Assembly (NCBI GenBank): GCA_944329385.1
Contig: CALVIE010000006.1
Span: 1 to 34,456, forward strand
Direction of reading: 5' to 3'
Source: an uncultured Bacilli bacterium
GTDB lineage: Bacteria > Bacillota_I > Bacilli_A > RF39 > UBA660
DNA length: 34,456 nt
The position numbers and the translations under genes were made by a program. Shown piece by piece: positions 8 through 27,937 of the stretch; positions within the stretch are counted from its first letter, which is position 1, and the number at the start of each line of letters is the position of its first letter. The notes below the pieces were generated by a model, which ran no database searches, had not been told where the DNA came from, and worked only from the letters and a program-made list of their open reading frames with translations.

Positions 8-44
8 AAAAAGATGAATTCTTTTCCACAGGATTCATCTTTTT
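8..44. terminator. Hairpin with a DnaA box in its loop, left edge of oriC
   Basis: Perfect 12-bp arms (8-19 and 33-44) enclose a 13-base loop that contains TTTTCCACA (22-30). The left arm starts with an A run and the right arm ends in a T run, so the hairpin could terminate transcription in both directions and insulate oriC from a gene left of the window. Whether the DnaA-box-like loop is functional or coincidental cannot be told from sequence. Confidence 0.55.
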
Positions 45-305
45 TATTAGCTTTAGAAAATTTTACCGGAACTCAAAGCAAGTTTTCCACAGTAAAATTT
101 TTTCGTTTTTTATCCACTTTTTATTTCCACATTTAATAGCCCTATATTATATATCATTTTTTCCATTTTTCAACAGCTGTGTAAAAATAAAACTTATTCA
201 CAAAAGTGGAAAAAAACTTATCCACAAAATATGTGGAAACTTTCTAATAATCCCAAAAATTCGACAAAAATCGACTGTTAATAACTTTTTTTATAATTTT
301 CCACA
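22..305. other. oriC: oriC, upstream DnaA-box cluster
   Basis: Gene-free stretch before dnaA, dense in DnaA-box-like 9-mers. A perfect TTATCCACA lies at 218-226 and TTATTCACA at 194-202. TTTTCCACA occurs at 22-30, 83-91 and 297-305. A reverse-strand TGTGTAAAA is at 178-186, and near matches are at 110-118 and 232-240. The surrounding sequence is almost only A and T. This matches the box cluster upstream of dnaA in Bacillus-type bipartite origins. DnaA binding here would both help build the initiation complex and repress dnaA. A weak -10-like TAAAAT at 336-341 may belong to the dnaA promoter. Confidence 0.85.
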
Positions 306-377: not shown

Positions 378-1721
378 ATGGATTTAGAAAGTATTTGGTC
401 CGTTTTTTTATCTAAAATTGAAATTAAGCTAAAACCAGTTTTATATCAAACATGGTTTCAAGAAACAAAATTAATTGATTTAAATAATGAATATGCTGTT
501 ATTTTAGTTCCCCTAGATGTACATAAAAAACATTTAATGGAAAACTATAGTGAAATAATAAAAGAAACTTTTATGGAAGTAACAGGTTCTATATTTAAAT
601 TTAAATATGTCACTCAAGAAGAAATAAATGAAGATAAAAAAAAGCCAGAAATAAATGAAAATAACGAAGCAACATTTGAAAGCGGATTAGATAGTAAATA
701 TACATTTGATAACTTTATTTCAGGTGAAAGTAATAAATTTGCCAAAGCCATTGGTCTTGCCGTAGCAGAAAAACCTGGTGCCATGTATAATCCCTTATTT
801 ATATATGGAAATAGTGGTTTAGGAAAAACTCACTTAATGCATGCTATTGGTAACTATATTGTATCTACATCCAATAAAAAAGTTTTATATGTAACAAGTG
901 AAAAATTTGTTGATGATTTTCTTAATATCTATCGCAAAAATGAAACAAGTAATTTTAAAGCTGTGGATAATTTCAAAAGAAAATACCGCGACATAGATGT
1001 ATTAATGATTGATGATATTCAATATCTTGAAATTGCAAGTAAAACACAACAAGAATTTTTCAACACTTTTAACGAACTACACACTCAAAATAAACAAATA
1101 ATTATTTCATCAGATAGATCTCCAGATGATTTAAAAAAACTAGAAGAAAGATTAAGAACAAGATTTAATTGGGGATTAACCATTGATATTCTACCACCTG
1201 ACTTTGAACTTAGAATGGCAATACTAGATAAAAAAATAGAAGCTCAAGGAATTGGTAATTTTGTTCCAGAAGAAGTAAAAGAATATATTTCTAATAACTG
1301 CACCACAGATATTAGAAAACTAGAAGGAGCTTTGACTAGAGTCTTTGCTTATGCTACTATAATGAATGGTTCAGAAATAACATTAGAACTTGCCGTTGAA
1401 GCTTTAAAAGATTATATTGGAAAAAATATAATATCTAGGAACAAAATAGACCAAGTAATCCAATTAGTTGCCAACAACTATAATATAACCGTCGAAGATA
1501 TTAAATCAAAAAAAAGATTGTCAAAAATATCTGTTCCAAGACAAATAGGTATGTACATCTGCCGAGTCCATCTAAAAGAATCTTTACCTAAAATTGGTAG
1601 CGAATTTGGAGGAAAAGATCATACAACAGTTATGCATTCTGTCGCTAAAATCAAAAGAGAATTAAAAAAAGATAAAAATCTTGAAGTCGAAATATCTAAA
1701 ATAATTAACCAAATAAAATAG
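378..1721 (+). CDS. dnaA: Chromosomal replication initiator protein DnaA
   Basis: Initiator ATPase that binds DnaA boxes and melts oriC. At 447 aa it has the usual length. The N-terminal domain (about 1-80) is followed by a charged linker. The AAA+ domain carries Walker A GNSGLGKT at 144-151 and Walker B in VLMIDDIQ. The C-terminal helix-turn-helix holds the DnaA signature GGKDHTTVMHS at about 411-421; Lys replaces the common Arg in GGRDHTT, a conservative change. The ATG follows a GGGGG ribosome site by the right distance. The gene lies between two DnaA-box clusters, so autoregulation is likely. A perfect reverse DnaA box, TGTGGATAA, lies inside the gene at 962-970. Confidence 0.98.
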   Translation: MDLESIWSVFLSKIEIKLKPVLYQTWFQETKLIDLNNEYAVILVPLDVHKKHLMENYSEIIKETFMEVTGSIFKFKYVTQEEINEDKKKPEINENNEATFESGLDSKYTFDNFISGESNKFAKAIGLAVAEKPGAMYNPLFIYGNSGLGKTHLMHAIGNYIVSTSNKKVLYVTSEKFVDDFLNIYRKNETSNFKAVDNFKRKYRDIDVLMIDDIQYLEIASKTQQEFFNTFNELHTQNKQIIISSDRSPDDLKKLEERLRTRFNWGLTIDILPPDFELRMAILDKKIEAQGIGNFVPEEVKEYISNNCTTDIRKLEGALTRVFAYATIMNGSEITLELAVEALKDYIGKNIISRNKIDQVIQLVANNYNITVEDIKSKKRLSKISVPRQIGMYICRVHLKESLPKIGSEFGGKDHTTVMHSVAKIKRELKKDKNLEVEISKIINQIK

Positions 1722-1736
1722 TGGAAAATATAAAAA

Positions 1737-1860
1737 TTATCCACAGTTATCCACACAATGTAAATAAGGAAAAAAGCCATATATTATATATAAAAAAATA
1801 CTTTTTCCACACTTTTCCACATCAATAATAAAAAATAATTTATAAATAATAAAAATAAGG
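1737..1860. other. oriC: oriC, downstream DnaA boxes and AT-rich unwinding region
   Basis: Between dnaA and dnaN there are two perfect TTATCCACA boxes (1737-1745, 1747-1755) with start-to-start spacing of 10 bp. A second pair of TTTTCCACA boxes (1803-1811, 1813-1821) has the same 10-bp phasing. They are followed by about 40 bp with almost no G or C (1822-1860). This arrangement resembles the B. subtilis incC/unwinding element, where DnaA loads on phased boxes and spreads into the AT-rich strand. I place the strand-opening site here by analogy. Confidence 0.85.
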
Positions 1861-3693: not shown

Positions 3694-6734
<3,041 letters not shown>

Positions 6735-6745
6735 GGAGGTAACCT

Positions 6746-9196
6746 ATGGATCACACAAGAGATAGATTAGAAGAAAACAACATAGTAAATGAAATAGAAA
6801 GTTCATTTATTGAATATGCCATGAGTGTTATCAAATCACGTGCCCTACCCGATTTAAGAGATGGTTTAAAACCAGTACATAGAAGAATATTATATTCCAT
6901 GTATGAATCAGGATATACACCTGACAAACCACATAAAAAAAGTGCTCGTATCGTCGGAGATGTTATGGGAAAATATCATCCACACGGTGATTCAAGTATT
7001 TATGAAGCTATGGTTCGTATGGCTCAAGATTTTAGTTATAGATATATGTTAGTAGATGGTCATGGAAACTTTGGAAACATAGAAGGTTATGGAGCAGCTG
7101 CTATGCGTTATACCGAATCAAGATTATCTAAAATTTCTCTAGAATTACTTAAAGATATTAACAAAAACACTGTAGATTTCGTACCAAACTTTGATGAATC
7201 AGAAAAAGAACCTGCAATTCTTCCATCTAGATTTCCAAATATATTAGTAAATGGAACTATGGGTATTGCTGTTGGTATGGCCACAAACATTCCACCACAT
7301 AACTTAGGCGAAGTAATAGATGGATGTGTAGCTTACATTGATAATCCAGACATTGATACAGATGGATTAATGAAATATATTAAAGGACCAGACTTTCCTA
7401 CTGGTGCAACCATACTAGGAAATAGTGGCATTAAAAAAGCCTATGAAACAGGAAGAGGAACAATAACAATAAGAAGTAAAGCTACAATTGAAGAAAAAAA
7501 CGGACGTCATTATATAATAGTTGATGAAGTTCCTTATGGTGTTAACACTTCAGATTTAAAAGACAAAGTTGCTGAACTTGTTCATACAAAAGTAATCGAT
7601 GGTATTTCAGATTATCATACAGATTTAAAAGATGGTATAAAAATAACCATAACATTAAAAAAAGATGCCAACCCACAAGTAGTTTTAAATAACTTATATA
7701 AACATACACAGTTTCAAACTACATATGGAATAATACTTCTAATGCTTGATAATAACACGCCAAGAACTCTAGGACTAAAAGACATCATTTCCAAATATAT
7801 TGATTATCAAAAAGAAGTTATCATTAGAAGAACTAAATTTGATTTAGATAAAGCGGAAAAAAGAGTTCATATCTTAGAAGGATATAAAATAGCTTTAGAT
7901 AATATTGATGATTTTATTAAAATAATTAGAGATGCAAAAACAGATACTGAAGCTAAAACTAAATTAATTGAAAAATATAATCTAACAGAAATTCAAGCCG
8001 AGGCAATATTAGAATTAAAATTACGTAGACTAACCGGATTAGAAAGAGAAAAAATAGAAGCCGAATTAAAAGATTTACTAGAAAAAATAAAATACTATAA
8101 AGAAATACTTTCCTCAGAAGCCAAAGTGTTAGAAATAATTAAAAATGAAATGCTAGAAATAAAAAATAAATATGGTGATGAAAGACGTACAAACATCGAT
8201 ATGACAGCCATTGACTATATCGAAGACGAATCACTCATACCTGTGGAAAACATTGTAGTAACTCTTACAAACAAAGGATATATCAAACGTATGACCAGTG
8301 AAACATATAAAACACAAAACCGTGGAGGAGTTGGAATTAAAGGAATGACCACAAACGAAAACGATTTTGTGGAAAAACTAATATCAATGACTACTCACGA
8401 TTATCTAATGTTTTTCACAAACAAAGGAAAAGCATATAGAGTCAAAGGTTATGAAATACCACAATATAGTAGACAATCAAAAGGTATACCAATAGTTAAT
8501 CTATTACCTTTCGAAAAAGAAGAAGAAGTAACCGCAATGCTTAAAATAGACCAAAATGAAGAAAATAACAATATTGTATTTTGTACACAAAATGGTTTAA
8601 TTAAACGTACAGCTTTATCAGAATTTGAAAATATTAGAAAAAGTGGAAAAATAGCTATTTCATTAAAAGAAAACGATCAGTTAATCTCTGTCAAAAAAAC
8701 AACTGGGGAAAACGAAATAGTTATTGCCGCTTCAAACGGTAGAATGATTAGATTTGGTGAACAAGAAATTAGAATAATGGGTAGAACAGCATCAGGAGTC
8801 AAAGGAATTGATTTAGGTGATGGCAAGTGCGTTGGATGTGAAATAGCAAATCCAGATGAACAAATACTAGTCGTAACAGAAAAAGGCTATGGAAAACGTA
8901 CAAATATAACCGAATATCGTATGACACATCGTGGAAGTAAAGGAGTCAAAGCATTAAACATAACAGAAAAAAATGGAAATATTGTTTCATTTAAAATAGT
9001 TAAAGGCGATGAAGACCTAATGATAATTACAAATAGCGGTATAATCATAAGACTTCCAATAGAACAAATTTCAACAACTGGTAGAGTTGCTCAAGGTGTA
9101 AGATTAATTAATCTAAAAGAAAATCAAAACGTAAGTAGTATTGCTTTATTAGATAAAGAAACAAGCGAAGAAAACCAAGAACAATCAGAAAACTAA
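6746..9196 (+). CDS. gyrA: DNA gyrase subunit A
   Basis: DNA-cleaving subunit of gyrase. The 816 aa are the normal length. The winged-helix and tower region include [10 protein letters not shown] (78-87), the quinolone-resistance-determining region, with Ser83/Ser84 and Glu87 as in susceptible Gram-positive enzymes. The catalytic tyrosine is Tyr122 in AAMRYTE. The C-terminal domain shows pinwheel-blade repeats and a GyrA-box, QNRGGVG, which supports gyrase rather than topoisomerase IV. The C-terminus is a short acidic tail. The ribosome site AAGGAGGT precedes the ATG. The gene ends just before the first parS site. Confidence 0.98.
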
Positions 9197-9201
9197 TCCA
9201 A

Positions 9202-9217
9202 TGTTTCACGTGAAACA
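9202..9217. other. parS: parS site 1
   Basis: Exact TGTTTCACGTGAAACA inside a 20-bp palindrome (9200-9219) with no further arms. It begins 5 bases after the gyrA stop and directly precedes the gyrA terminator. Confidence 0.95.
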
Positions 9218-9222
9218 TTAAG

Positions 9223-9247
9223 AAGAACGTTTAGTGCGTTCTTTTTT
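9223..9247 (+). terminator. Terminator of the recF-gyrB-gyrA operon
   Basis: Stem AAGAACG (9223-9229) / CGTTCTT (9237-9243) with a 7-base loop, followed by a T run. It lies just after parS site 1. Confidence 0.8.
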
Positions 9248-9311
9248 ATATTAAATATATATAAAAGAAAATAGAATATTAAAATAATATTACAATATAT
9301 TTTAAAACTAA

Positions 9312-9327
9312 TGTTTCACGTGAAACA
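9312..9327. other. parS: parS site 2
   Basis: Exact 16-bp parS at the centre of the longest palindrome of the array, 38 bp perfect (9301-9338). The outer arms are TTTAAAACT and its complement. Confidence 0.95.
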
Positions 9328-9438
9328 TTAGTTTTAAACACAATAAAATATATTTTTATAAAAGTGTGTACAATTTTTTAATTCAAATTCATATATTATT
9401 ACTATGTTCAAAATATAAAAACAATATTTTAGCACCAA

Positions 9439-9454
9439 TGTTTCACGTGAAACA
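9439..9454. other. parS: parS site 3
   Basis: Exact 16-bp parS in a 26-bp palindrome (9434-9459), outer arms ACC/GGT. Confidence 0.95.
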
Positions 9455-9539
9455 TTGGTATATTACTAACAATATAGTAAAAACATTAAAATTTACAATT
9501 AAAAATCCAAAATTATTTTCAAATTTTCCACAGTTCTAA

Positions 9540-9555
9540 TGTTTCACGTGAAACA
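9540..9555. other. parS: parS site 4
   Basis: Exact 16-bp parS in only a 20-bp palindrome (9538-9557). Its flanks do not match each other because the site is the junction of the 101-bp duplication. Confidence 0.95.
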
Positions 9556-9640
9556 TTGGTATATTACTAACAATATAGTAAAAACATTAAAATTTACAAT
9601 TAAAAATCCAAAATTATTTTCAAATTTTCCACAGTTCTAA

Positions 9641-9656
9641 TGTTTCACGTGAAACA
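9641..9656. other. parS: parS site 5
   Basis: Exact 16-bp parS in a 30-bp palindrome (9634-9663), outer arms GTTCT/AGAAC. A TTTTCCACA ends one base before it (9625-9633). Confidence 0.95.
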
Positions 9657-9815
9657 TTAGAACAAATAAATAATCAACAACAAATAACAAAAACATCTAA
9701 AAAAATTTAAAGATAAATTTCAAAACTAACATTTTATATAAAAGTTAATATAGTTAACATTTATAAATAGTTATGTTTATTAAAAACATTAATTACAATT
9801 TTTCCACAGTATCAA

Positions 9816-9831
9816 TGTTTCACGTGAAACA
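9816..9831. other. parS: parS site 6
   Basis: Exact 16-bp parS in a 34-bp palindrome (9807-9840), outer arms CAGTATC/GATACTG. TTTTCCACA (9800-9808) overlaps the left arm. Confidence 0.95.
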
Positions 9832-10004
9832 TTGATACTGAATAACACAAAAATGTGCTATGTTTTCAATTTGTAAAAATAAAATAGTGAAAAATATTAT
9901 TTATAAAAAATAAAACCTAGCATTTTACTAAAAAATAAAATAATTTATACCATATAATTAAAATATTTATATACTTTATATTAAAAAAATATTTATAGTA
10001 CCAA

Positions 10005-10020
10005 TGTTTCACGTGAAACA
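10005..10020. other. parS: parS site 7
   Basis: Exact 16-bp parS in a 28-bp palindrome (9999-10026), outer arms TACC/GGTA. Confidence 0.95.
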
Positions 10021-10182
10021 TTGGTAAACATTTAAAATTGTATTCATATAATAATATGCAAACAATATAAAATTAAATGTGAATACAATAAAAATATTTA
10101 AGTACAATTAATATGTATATATAATAACAGTAAATAATTTTATATTTAAACAACAATATATAAAATTTTACTTTGCTAGCAA

Positions 10183-10198
10183 TGTTTCACGTGAAACA
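10183..10198. other. parS: parS site 8
   Basis: Exact 16-bp parS in a 28-bp palindrome (10177-10204), outer arms TAGC/GCTA. Confidence 0.95.
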
Positions 10199-10384
10199 TT
10201 GCTATTATTTAAATAAAAATATACAAAAATATAAAGTTAATTGCAAATCCTAATAAAATCTTTAAATATATTTATATATAAAATAATAAAAAGCTTTATA
10301 TCTTAAAAATATAATATATAAAATTTAATAAAAAAATTATAAAAACTTTAATATATGGTAATAATGAATAAGATATAGGACTAA

Positions 10385-10400
10385 TGTTTCACGTGAAACA
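10385..10400. other. parS: parS site 9
   Basis: Exact 16-bp parS in a 26-bp palindrome (10380-10405), outer arms ACT/AGT. A reverse DnaA-box-like TGTGGAAAA follows at 10418-10426, and the SRP RNA promoter lies about 50 bases on. Confidence 0.95.
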
Positions 10401-10450
10401 TTAGTAAAAAAAATTACTGTGGAAAACTAATCAAAACTTATAAAAAAATA

Positions 10451-10482
10451 TAGACATTTTTCTCTAATTATTATAATATAAT
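10451..10482 (+). promoter_or_regulatory. Promoter of the SRP RNA gene
   Basis: A -35-like TAGACA (10451-10456) precedes two overlapping TATAAT hexamers (10472-10477 and 10477-10482), just before the predicted RNA 5' end at about 10487. Spacing is 15 or 20, so the -35 assignment is uncertain. Confidence 0.6.
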
Positions 10483-10486
10483 TATT

Positions 10487-10564
10487 GGTACAACATTTAT
10501 GGCTGAACCAGGTCAGAATTGGAAAATAGCAGCCTTAAGGTCCTCTAAATGTGTGTACCTTTTT
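10487..10564 (+). ncRNA. ffs: Signal recognition particle RNA (4.5S type)
   Basis: A short hairpin RNA of about 78 bases. The ends pair (GGTAC at 10487 with GTACC at 10555-10559). The apical part carries the conserved SRP helix 8 motifs: CCAGGTCAG on the 5' side, a GGAA tetraloop and AGCAGCC on the 3' side. A T run at 10560-10564 ends it. The product binds Ffh and targets nascent membrane proteins. It is the short form without an Alu domain, unlike the long B. subtilis scRNA, but sits in the same place, next to tadA and dnaX. Confidence 0.9.
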
Positions 10565-10578
10565 ATATAGGTGATAAT

Positions 10579-10986
10579 ATGGATAAATATATGGAAATAG
10601 CTTTAAAAGAAGCAAAAAAAAGCCTAAAAACAGATGATGTTCCAGTAGGTGCACTCATTGTAGAAGACGGCAAAATCATTGCTAAATGTCATAACACACG
10701 AGAAAAAACACATCAAATTACTAAACATGCTGAAATAAATGCCATTGAAAAAGCTTGCAAAAAGAAAAAAACCTGGCACCTCAATAACTGCGAATTGTAT
10801 GTCACACTTGAACCGTGTAGTATGTGTATAGAAGCCGCAAAACAAGCTAGAATAAAGTGTATAATATACGCAGCTAAACAAGAAAAAAAAGCAAACTTAA
10901 AAACTCCAGAACTTATTCAAATTAAAAATGTGGAAAACTCTAAGAATTTACTAAAAGATTTCTTTAAAAATAAGCGAAATAAGTAA
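10579..10986 (+). CDS. tadA: tRNA-specific adenosine deaminase TadA
   Basis: Converts A34 to inosine in tRNA-Arg(ACG), needed to read CGN codons. From this ATG it has 135 aa with the zinc deaminase signature: HAE at 50-52 (catalytic Glu51) and PCSMC at 79-83. I chose the ATG at 10579, preceded by TAGGTGAT. An in-frame ATG at 10549 lies inside the SRP RNA, would add ten unrelated residues and has no ribosome site. The gene follows the SRP RNA by 15 bases, so read-through expression is possible. It ends at an 8-bp stem terminator. Confidence 0.93.
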   Translation: MDKYMEIALKEAKKSLKTDDVPVGALIVEDGKIIAKCHNTREKTHQITKHAEINAIEKACKKKKTWHLNNCELYVTLEPCSMCIEAAKQARIKCIIYAAKQEKKANLKTPELIQIKNVENSKNLLKDFFKNKRNK

Positions 10987-13936: not shown

Positions 13937-14884
13937 ATGTTAGATGAATATAAAAATTCACAGCCAATTATTTATAAAATATTAAAAAATGCAATTTTAA
14001 ATGATAAATGCTCCCACGCCTATTTAATAGAAACAGGCGGTTTTTATGATTCACTAGGCTTTACTATGGCCTTTGTTAAATCCCTTTTATGTCCTAAAAA
14101 AAACTTAACTAAAGAAAAATGTGGTAATTGTCATCAATGTGAAGTAATTGATTCAGGTAATTTTCCTGAAATAGAAATAATTAAACCAGATGGATTATGG
14201 ATAAAAAAAGAACAACTTCAAAATCTTCAAAAAGAATTTAATACCAAAGCATTAATAGGAAATAAAAGAGTTTATATTATAATGGAAGCTGATAGACTAA
14301 ACAAATCATCTGCCAATTCCATCTTAAAATTTCTAGAAGAACCTGATAATAACCTTATAGCCATACTTCTAACTGATAATATATATAACGTTTTAACAAC
14401 TATTATTTCTAGATGTCAAATTTTAAAATTAAAATCTACTAATATTATAAATTCTTCACTTAATCAATACCAAAAATTAAAGCAAATAACCGCATCGAAT
14501 TCTAACATAGAAGATGATATAATAAATCAAAAAATAGAAAAAGCCATTGATTTTGTTAATTACTATGAAAAAAATCATTTAAATACAATGCTATATATTA
14601 ATAAACTATGGCACGATAACATCACAACTAAAGAAGAATATTTGATAGCCTTTGAAGTAATTATAAATTATTATAAAGATATTTTAAATTATAATCTACT
14701 TAAACCATTGGAAATATTTGAATTAAATGATAATATAAAGAAAATTGCTCAAAATAACAGCACGCAAGAAATATGTAACAAAATAACTAAAATAGTTACA
14801 TTAAAAGATTTAATAAAATATAATATAAATACATCTTTATTAATGGATAAATTAATAATGAGTTTAGAAGGAGTGATACAATGA
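13937..14884 (+). CDS. holB: DNA polymerase III delta' subunit
   Basis: Clamp-loader stator subunit (315 aa). Its start resembles DnaX (LKNAILNDKCSHAYLIETGG), but the Walker A lysine motif is absent, as in other delta' proteins. It has zinc-binding cysteines (CPKKNLTKEKCGNCHQC), the SSANSILKFLEEPDNN segment and SRCQ. The ribosome site is TAGGAGG. The stop overlaps the ricT start by four bases (ATGA). In B. subtilis tmk, yaaQ and yaaR lie between bofA and holB; here they are missing, giving a shortened locus. Confidence 0.93.
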   Translation: MLDEYKNSQPIIYKILKNAILNDKCSHAYLIETGGFYDSLGFTMAFVKSLLCPKKNLTKEKCGNCHQCEVIDSGNFPEIEIIKPDGLWIKKEQLQNLQKEFNTKALIGNKRVYIIMEADRLNKSSANSILKFLEEPDNNLIAILLTDNIYNVLTTIISRCQILKLKSTNIINSSLNQYQKLKQITASNSNIEDDIINQKIEKAIDFVNYYEKNHLNTMLYINKLWHDNITTKEEYLIAFEVIINYYKDILNYNLLKPLEIFELNDNIKKIAQNNSTQEICNKITKIVTLKDLIKYNINTSLLMDKLIMSLEGVIQ

Positions 14885-25451: not shown

Positions 25452-27068
25452 TTAATTATCCATATAATTCATAAGTTTTGGAACAATTTGTTTTTTACGA
25501 GAAACAAGTCCTTCAAAGAAATGTCCTTGTTCTATATTCTCTACTCCAAATGAATTAGAGAAAATATCCTTTGCTTTATCATTGAAGAAAATATAAGAAC
25601 CATTTTTCAAAATATCAGTAACAAATAAAGCAATAGCTGTATATCCTTCCTCAGCTTCTTCATTTAACTCACTAATAAATTCATCTTGTTTACTCATAAT
25701 CTCTTCAGTACTCATAGTTGAAACTTGACCAATTCCCACTTTTTGGTTATCCACCATAAAGTTTTTAAAGTCACCATGAATAATCTCAGAAATACTTTTA
25801 CCTTTCATAGATGATCCAGCCTTAAACATTTCCATACCATACTCTCTAAAGTTTACTCCTGCAATCTTAGAAAGTTCCTCCAAAGCTTCCTTATCAACCT
25901 CAGTAGTTGTAGGTGATGTTAAAAGTAGTGTATCAGAAATAATACCTGACATCATTAAACCTGCATACTTCTTAGGAATTTTAACATTATGTTCTTTAAA
26001 CATCAAATACAAAATTGTTTCAGTACATCCAAGTGGCATATTTCTAAAGTTAATTGGCATATTTGTACCAATATTTCCAATTTTATGATGATCCACAATT
26101 TCAATAATTTCAGCTTCGTCTAATCCGATAACACTCTGCTCTTTTTCATTGTGGTCAACTAAAATAACTTGTTTAGGATGACGACTATAAGCCATACTAA
26201 CTCTAAACACACCTAAACATTTTCCTTCATTATCGACAACTGGATAATTACTGTATTTTTTCTTATTAGCTAAATCTAAAATCTCACCCAAAGCATCATT
26301 TTCATTAATATAAACGATTTCTTTAGTTTTCATTTTATTTTTAATATAGTTACTTAAAACAACTAAGTTTGCAGTTGTTAAACCATCGTGTTTAGTACTA
26401 ATAACATCGACATGATTTTTCTTCGCAATCTCTAAGTGCTCCTTCTTCATTTTAACTCCATTAGTTAAAATAATAATTGATGCGCTATTTTCAACCGCAT
26501 ACTCAATAATACTGTGTCTATCACCAGTAATTAAAACACTTTCCTTATCTATCTTGATATTTTCTTTAAAAGTCGTACTTCTATAACTTGGTGAAATTAT
26601 ATTTCCGCGTATTTCCTTGTCAAATCTTAAAACTTCTTTACCACTTAATGCCTCAAGTAAATTGTCGTAAGACGTATTAATTTTTCTTAAATCATTATTA
26701 ATCAAATTACTTGCGACATCCTTCATCGAAACCGCACCTTTATAAAAGCCATCATTATCAATAACCGGAATTGTTCCAATACTAGTTTCATTCATGTACT
26801 TATAAGCTTTATAAATAGAATCATTTTCCTTTAAAAAGCACCCTTTAGTATAATCAACATCTTTAACCTGAAGTCTTACATCATTTAAAAACTTAGGTCT
26901 ATCAAACTTAAAATAATCTAAAACAAACTCTGTTTCACTATTAATATCACCCAAAACTCTAGGCTCAGTATCCATTCCTAATTGATTTTTTAAATAAGAT
27001 AAAACCAAAGATGATGTCACACTATCAGTATCAGGTTTTTGATGTCCAAAAATTAAAATTTTACTCAA
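25452..27068 (-). CDS. ppaC: Manganese-dependent inorganic pyrophosphatase with CBS and DRTGG domains
   Basis: Family II (DHH) pyrophosphatase that hydrolyses PPi, 538 aa against about 310 for the plain enzyme. The extra length is a regulatory insert: CBS (about 70-125), DRTGG-like (about 150-240) and CBS (about 250-300). Metal ligands are seen in GHQKPDTDS near the N-terminus, in VDHNE and in the DHH motif VDHHKIG. The C-terminal DHHA2 domain includes SRKKQ near the end. CBS enzymes of this kind are tuned by adenine nucleotides. The start is TTG, supported by AAGGAGGAGA; the extended -10 lies at 27094-27102. Transcribed alone. Confidence 0.93.
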   Translation of the reverse strand: MSKILIFGHQKPDTDSVTSSLVLSYLKNQLGMDTEPRVLGDINSETEFVLDYFKFDRPKFLNDVRLQVKDVDYTKGCFLKENDSIYKAYKYMNETSIGTIPVIDNDGFYKGAVSMKDVASNLINNDLRKINTSYDNLLEALSGKEVLRFDKEIRGNIISPSYRSTTFKENIKIDKESVLITGDRHSIIEYAVENSASIIILTNGVKMKKEHLEIAKKNHVDVISTKHDGLTTANLVVLSNYIKNKMKTKEIVYINENDALGEILDLANKKKYSNYPVVDNEGKCLGVFRVSMAYSRHPKQVILVDHNEKEQSVIGLDEAEIIEIVDHHKIGNIGTNMPINFRNMPLGCTETILYLMFKEHNVKIPKKYAGLMMSGIISDTLLLTSPTTTEVDKEALEELSKIAGVNFREYGMEMFKAGSSMKGKSISEIIHGDFKNFMVDNQKVGIGQVSTMSTEEIMSKQDEFISELNEEAEEGYTAIALFVTDILKNGSYIFFNDKAKDIFSNSFGVENIEQGHFFEGLVSRKKQIVPKLMNYMDN

Positions 27069-27722: not shown

Positions 27723-27937
27723 ATAAATGCTGTGAAGGAAAGAAAAGTAGGTAACTTTATAGAGAGTTTATGGTTGGTGGAAATAAACAAGGTGACTACT
27801 CTAAATGGCTCCTAAGCACTTTAGCCGATATTTAAGCTAAAGCGGTAAACACCGTTATATGTTCAAAGGTAAGAAAATCTTACGAATTAAGGTGGTACCA
27901 CGCTCATAAACGTCCTTATCCTAAGGATGTTTTTTTA
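27723..27937 (+). promoter_or_regulatory. T-box riboswitch, Met (AUG) specifier, of dut-metG
   Basis: Leader RNA that senses uncharged tRNA. Stem I carries the AGTA S-turn, the AGAGAG and GGTTGGTGG distal-loop motifs and, on its 3' side, an AUG at 27805-27807 that fits the specifier position. The highly conserved T-box sequence AAGGTGGTACCACG is at 27889-27902. The competing terminator has a 9-bp stem (27910-27918 / 27922-27930) with a T run. Uncharged tRNA-Met would stabilise the antiterminator and switch on dut-metG. The specifier is read by eye but agrees with metG downstream. Confidence 0.92.

Follow-up and report, generated by a model that had tools for sequence, protein, structure and literature searches.

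A compact array of nine identical parS sites lies near the replication origin of an uncultured bacterium of the Bacilli (RF39; UBA660), and in one large clade of its genus many parS sites of such arrays carry DnaA boxes at fixed, helically phased positions. A box kept at a fixed distance from many parS sites suggests, as far as sequence can tell, a built-in physical link from the start of replication to chromosome segregation. The coupling of these two processes in bacteria (i.e., replication start and origin segregation) is an open question, and direct action of DnaA at a centromere rests mainly on Caulobacter so far. Here, fixed helical positions of the box beside parS have been kept by evolution in a different phylum, and this fixed geometry makes the DnaA-centromere idea testable with short synthetic DNA.

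The window (i.e., the whole stretch of 34,456 nucleotides that was analyzed) contains nine exact copies of the parS 16-mer TGTTTCACGTGAAACA at positions 9202 to 10400, between gyrA and the small signal recognition particle (SRP) RNA gene and about 8.8 kb from dnaA. The copies start at 9202, 9312, 9439, 9540, 9641, 9816, 10005, 10183, and 10385, with start-to-start spacings of 110, 127, 101, 101, 175, 189, 178, and 202 bp. The array is flanked by dnaA-dnaN-recF-gyrB-gyrA on one side and by tadA-dnaX on the other. When up to three mismatches were allowed, the window scan returned a single match besides the nine sites (at 25491, with 3 mismatches); the expectation from shuffled sequences was a mean of 0.22 and a maximum of 1. 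An earlier note on this DNA had described nine identical sites, 101 to 202 bp apart in a gene-free stretch about 9 kb from dnaA and with no further full match in the window. Our scan recovered this layout; the note had missed both the phasing of DnaA boxes and the palindromic extension of the sites. One of the nine sites is the product of an exact 101-bp tandem duplication. The features of the region are as follows.

22 to 305, plus strand: four DnaA boxes ahead of dnaA, which likely belong to oriC
378 to 1721, plus strand: dnaA (NCBIfam)
1737 to 1821, plus strand: four DnaA boxes between dnaA and dnaN, likely a second part of oriC
6746 to 9196, plus strand: gyrA, left neighbor of the array (NCBIfam)
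9202 to 9217: parS site 1, exact 16-mer directly after the gyrA stop
9223 to 9243, no strand assigned: hairpin followed by a T-run, terminator-like, just 3' of gyrA (from the sequence; stem listing)
9312 to 9327: parS site 2, within a 38-bp perfect palindrome (9301 to 9338) with 11-bp arms
9437 to 9638, plus strand: exact 101-bp tandem duplication (copies 9437 to 9537 and 9538 to 9638), with parS and a DnaA box in the unit
9439 to 9454: parS site 3, 5-bp palindromic arms (whole, 9434 to 9459)
9524 to 9532, plus strand: DnaA box TTTTCCACA, 7 nt left of parS site 4
9540 to 9555: parS site 4, hybrid flanks, created by the 101-bp duplication
9625 to 9633, plus strand: DnaA box TTTTCCACA, 7 nt left of parS site 5
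9641 to 9656: parS site 5, 7-bp palindromic arms (whole, 9634 to 9663)
9800 to 9808, plus strand: DnaA box TTTTCCACA, 7 nt left of parS site 6
9816 to 9831: parS site 6, 9-bp palindromic arms (whole, 9807 to 9840), compensatory changes relative to the G002 orthologue
10005 to 10020: parS site 7, 6-bp arms (whole, 9999 to 10026)
10183 to 10198: parS site 8, 6-bp arms (whole, 10177 to 10204)
10385 to 10400: parS site 9, 5-bp arms (whole, 10380 to 10405), compensatory changes relative to the G002 orthologue
10418 to 10426, minus strand: DnaA box TTTTCCACA, 17 nt right of parS site 9
10477 to 10574, plus strand: small SRP RNA gene, right neighbor of the array (Rfam RF00169)
10549 to 10986, plus strand: tadA (NCBIfam), longest-ORF start; the true start is probably downstream of the SRP RNA

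A T-box leader (RF00230) was also found in the window, at 27723 to 27920.

Perfect DnaA boxes (defined as TTWTCCACA) accompany four of the nine parS sites in the window, and their density is 2.16 per kb in arrays versus 0.77 per kb elsewhere. Two arrangements recur in the genus: toward gyrA, 25 sites have a box in the form 5'-TTWTCCACA-N6..8-parS (chiefly at 7 nt), and toward tadA, 33 have one in the form parS-N15..19-TGTGGAWAA (chiefly at 17 to 19 nt). Among boxes facing parS within 60 nt, 58 of 59 were located at left 6 to 8 or right 15 to 19, where uniform placement would put 7.7%; shuffled flanks gave 0.01 composites against the 58 observed. Boxes facing away from parS at these positions were never found in the genus arrays, control positions carried almost no boxes, and mismatched boxes at the phased positions were almost absent (4 one-mismatch cases). 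In an unbiased count of all 9-mers at all offsets around 213 parS sites from about 31 genomes, the top motifs were TTTTCCACA 7 nt to the left of parS and TGTGGAAAA 17 to 18 nt to its right. The left and right gap classes are about 11 bp (i.e., one helical turn) apart. The box remains constant while the gap sequence varies among composites, and the array variants, TTTTCCACA and TTATCCACA, are the same two that form the eight boxes around dnaA. The array motifs are thus very probably DnaA boxes under selection for their position.

In a GyrA tree, the composite occurred in 17 of 20 rows of one supported clade and additionally in G009. The left-hand type was restricted to a subclade, and the two placements therefore probably arose separately; repetition of the parS-box unit was partly inherited via unit duplication. 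The pairing is dispensable, since genus members with short-period tandem arrays (37 to 73 bp) mostly lack boxes in them. Because parS is symmetric, the asymmetry of the left and right classes is not accounted for by a simple ParB-DnaA contact. Surveyed with the exact pattern across 288 genomes of the order, the pairing was present in 5 genomes at gaps of 3 to 25 and in 8 at gaps of 0 to 2, nearly always at gap 1. Within the family, other genera had gap 1 (7 genomes of 4 genera) or gaps of 11 to 12 (one genus). In one other genus (L285, L289, L284, and L286 in G164, G339, G078, and G282, respectively), boxes lie 1 nt away on one side of parS and 11 to 12 nt away on the other; these gaps, too, are about one helical turn apart, which, with so few sites, is no more than suggestive. 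In 395 genomes of the class, the pairing was found nowhere outside this family. Unrelated dense parS arrays had no DnaA box at these gaps, and we rejected the composite as a general feature of dense arrays. A role of the array as oriC itself was likewise rejected: the densest box clusters flank dnaA, one upstream of it and one in the spacer before dnaN, and boxes in the array occur singly and in association with parS.

The array is a conserved chromosomal feature. Most of 35 other genomes of the genus contain parS arrays of 2 to 13 members, and the gyrA-array-tadA layout was found in essentially every member with an assembled gyrA 3' end (about 30 independent assemblies). Arrays occupy the gyrA-tadA gap across much of this family of gut Bacilli as well: nearly all of 18 sampled genomes from other genera had a whole or partial array there, and named GTDB metagenome-assembled genomes (MAGs) showed the same position. 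The comparison of the gyrA-ffs gap in relatives proposed in the earlier note thus found the array in place, and recurrence in independent assemblies disposes of the assembly artefact that the note had named as a possible refutation. Its comparison with a plasmid centromere or an engineered array fails for a similar reason, the same gap being occupied in about 30 genomes of the genus and in other genera. A plasmid-type centromere on a plasmid was rejected, given that the housekeeping flanks (dnaA-dnaN-recF-gyrB-gyrA and tadA-dnaX) are conserved in relatives. No parS match at up to two mismatches was present in four genomes (G003, G033, G034, and G035), but the gyrA 3' end is missing from these assemblies (a search for it gave only ParC-like matches or a contig break); their zero counts are therefore uninformative, and loss of parS is not supported.

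Array architecture turns over rapidly. Spacing is irregular (100 to 300 bp) in many species of the genus, and others have short-period tandem arrays with periods of 37 to 39 bp (G005 and G012), 48 bp (G010), 63 bp (G031), and 73 bp (G030). The tandem loci are L088, L090 and L115, L112, L107 and L108, and L109 (strict periods of 48, 37 to 39, 73, and 63 bp), and contigs often break inside such arrays. Among the parS variants in them, several have ...GAAACT as their ending or contain TGTTCC, which suggests recent amplification of units. In genus g62 (L291 to L296), parS sites lie on both sides of tadA and reach into the dnaX region.

Across the order, 240 of 288 genomes had at least one parS site. 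A GTDB scan for three parS sites with gaps of 82 to 112 nt returned at least 115 stretches, and Bacilli, Clostridia, Actinomycetes, Paceibacterota, Treponema, Bdellovibrionales, and others were among the matches listed. Together with the published Myxococcus cluster, these widespread triplets indicate that dense parS arrays are common in bacteria. Widely scattered parS sites are confined to a few lineages, Bacilli included (PMC8357415), so that a tight array is unusual for Bacilli and not for bacteria. The family studied here is an exception to the scattered pattern of Bacilli, and the contrast with known chromosomes drawn in the earlier note was overstated.

The draft genome (99 contigs, 81% complete) was searched for further sites and for partner proteins, both of which had been put forward as checks. 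Outside the array, the genome-wide parS scan gave two matches only. Both are on contig C29 (L081) and are separated by about 10.6 kb: the match at 14373 is exact, and that at 3773 has 1 mismatch. Contig C29 is probably foreign or contaminating in this MAG, because its tetranucleotide profile deviates (correlation of 0.69, versus 0.80 to 0.92 for the remaining contigs with a length of at least 11 kb; two smaller ones of 7 to 9 kb gave 0.58 to 0.60) and its genes are for sugar/inositol-type catabolism. Its two sites were accordingly not taken as a sign of wider scatter. A parA-parB operon was located on contig C26, and its ParB has equivalents of R173 and G201 (SKSRSHITN...GHARAL), a parS-type signature; both residues are absolutely conserved among ParB orthologues (PMC7383237). 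SMC is also encoded in the genome. A second ParB-family protein (584 amino acids) is encoded at mnmE-mnmG-rsmG, the locus of Noc in Bacillus, and has Q, K, and R at positions 173, 179, and 201 (Noc type). On these recognition signatures, the array would be expected to be a target of ParB and not of Noc. An array of Noc binding sites was rejected, as all nine sites are parS, whereas the Noc-type paralogue has the signature for Noc binding sites (NBS type). In that paralogue (L083, 8235 to 9989, on contig C9), an Asn/Ser-rich low-complexity linker of about 300 amino acids joins the helix-turn-helix part to the C-terminal domain, and long Noc-type versions (frames of about 350 to 710 amino acids) occur throughout the genus.

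The array is almost certainly a ParB centromere array, judging from the nine exact copies of a 16-bp parS palindrome near the origin and the parA-parB operon with parS-type recognition residues in the same genome. DnaA boxes lie within the parS region, as in Caulobacter: the window array has four perfect ones, and 58 composites were counted across the genus. We reject a plasmid-like or engineered nature of the array as well as an assembly artefact. We favor, with reasonable but far from full confidence, an account in which the chromosomal ParABS centromere of this host-associated Bacilli lineage is gathered in one 1.2-kb array near oriC, with adjacent DnaA coupling initiation to segregation. 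By the known ParABS pathway, each of the nine parS sites would load ParB dimers, which would then close into CTP clamps and spread; the array region would be moved by ParA, and SMC would be loaded there. The single ParB/SMC loading zone proposed in the earlier note is the natural reading of parS sites near dnaA together with parA-parB and SMC. The identity of the boxes implies that DnaA, bound on the same helical face at positions about one turn apart, would place the initiator beside ParB. Centromere activity could then be tied to DnaA level or activity, so that origin firing is coupled to origin segregation; for this coupling, which follows the Caulobacter precedent, we see even chances. Observed are the genes, the parS sites with their conservation, and the phasing of the boxes; occupancy by ParB and by DnaA, contact of the two proteins, and the direction of control are what we infer. 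A more specific and tentative proposal, to which we give somewhat less than even odds, is that a same-face parS and DnaA box form one composite element with a joint DnaA-ParB complex, in which initiator status would license ParB loading or ParA engagement, and that the family has reset the gap in discrete steps (1, 7, 11 to 12, and 17 to 19).

The boxes could have other roles. In an ordinary chromosomal parS cluster they might serve merely as a sink or reservoir for DnaA close to oriC, in the manner of datA, and have no functional contact with ParB. Their enrichment in arrays (the densities given above) and the proximity of oriC fit this idea, but titration needs neither fixed distance nor orientation, and with 58 of 59 parS-facing boxes at two phased positions we consider it unlikely. 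About equally unlikely is a one-sided roadblock, in which DnaA next to parS would shape the sliding of ParB clamps and confine them to the array, shielding gyrA and the SRP RNA gene. A tightly bound protein does stop ParB spreading in one direction in vitro (PMC7053999), and the boxes lie directly beside parS on a defined side; however, a roadblock has no need of helical phasing, and DnaA turnover at origins is fast (2.5-s half-time in Bacillus subtilis; PMC6399470).

DnaA-dependent regulation of the downstream SRP RNA-tadA-dnaX transcription unit is improbable. The last box of the window array (10418 to 10426) precedes the SRP RNA by about 50 bp, and right-hand boxes are frequent at the last parS site, yet many others are at internal sites (e.g., six in G023 and five in G028) and the left-hand boxes are far from the promoter. 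It is less probable still that the motif is a degenerate parS half-site (TGTTCCAC-like) making a third ParB contact: TTTTCCAC is one base from the half-site TGTTCCAC, but TGTTCCAC itself was never found at the phased positions, where TTATCCACA, a canonical DnaA box with two mismatches to the half-site, does occur. The terminal A is also kept, and the same two variants surround dnaA. A plasmid-derived, engineered, or misassembled array has a negligible probability; dense repeats and contig breaks in the arrays of several relatives speak for it, but the same locus is occupied in about 30 separate genomes of the genus and in many other genera, where the spacers have diverged and the array is flanked to either side by chromosomal housekeeping genes.

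Among the open-licence PMC literature, a chromosomal parS cluster is a known kind of element, and the phased unit of parS and DnaA box is new. Myxococcus xanthus has 22 parS sites within 3 kb, likewise in one near-origin stretch and bound by ParB in vitro; its cluster lies near parA and not in a gyrA-tadA gap, and the available part of that report mentions no parS-phased DnaA boxes for it (PMC3899335). In Caulobacter crescentus, as in the window, the parS region contains DnaA boxes and lies about 8 kb away from the origin (PMC6399470; parS cluster, PMC5815017), and DnaA is reported to bind them, enabling segregation (Mera 2014, as reviewed in PMC6399470). Caulobacter belongs to a different phylum, and the literature consulted on it contained neither fixed helical phasing nor a repeated parS-box unit conserved across species. 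The Spo0J/Soj system of B. subtilis shares a near-identical parS consensus, ParA-ParB, and SMC, and regulation between ParA (Soj) and DnaA is a further likeness, but its eight to ten parS sites are distributed over a wide region instead of one 1.2-kb array (PMC8357415, PMC6399470). At rctA/parS2 of Vibrio cholerae chromosome II, initiator and ParB zones also adjoin at the centromere, although the initiator is RctB instead of DnaA and the locus is a single complex one (PMC6399470).

The parS sites are additionally extended by palindromic arms. Complementarity was more frequent between the two flanks of one site than between flanks taken from different sites of an array (493 versus 390.5 +/- 14.1 in the genus), and the excess was also detected in other genera of the family (z = 7.6) and in unrelated bacteria (z = 3). 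It spans about six positions beyond the 16-mer, and arm sequences vary between sites though they are palindromic. In an alignment of the window with its close relative G002, we read about five paired changes that keep complementarity, at sites 6, 7, and 9. The arms are either a selected longer dyad or an extension by palindrome-templated mutation; template switching at palindromes is a described mutation mechanism (PMC8794818), and compensatory arms offer a natural case for separating it from selection. The 38-bp palindrome at 9301 to 9338 and two other extended parS sites were also matched by a terminator scan, which indicates that read-through transcripts would fold into RNA hairpins at the arms.
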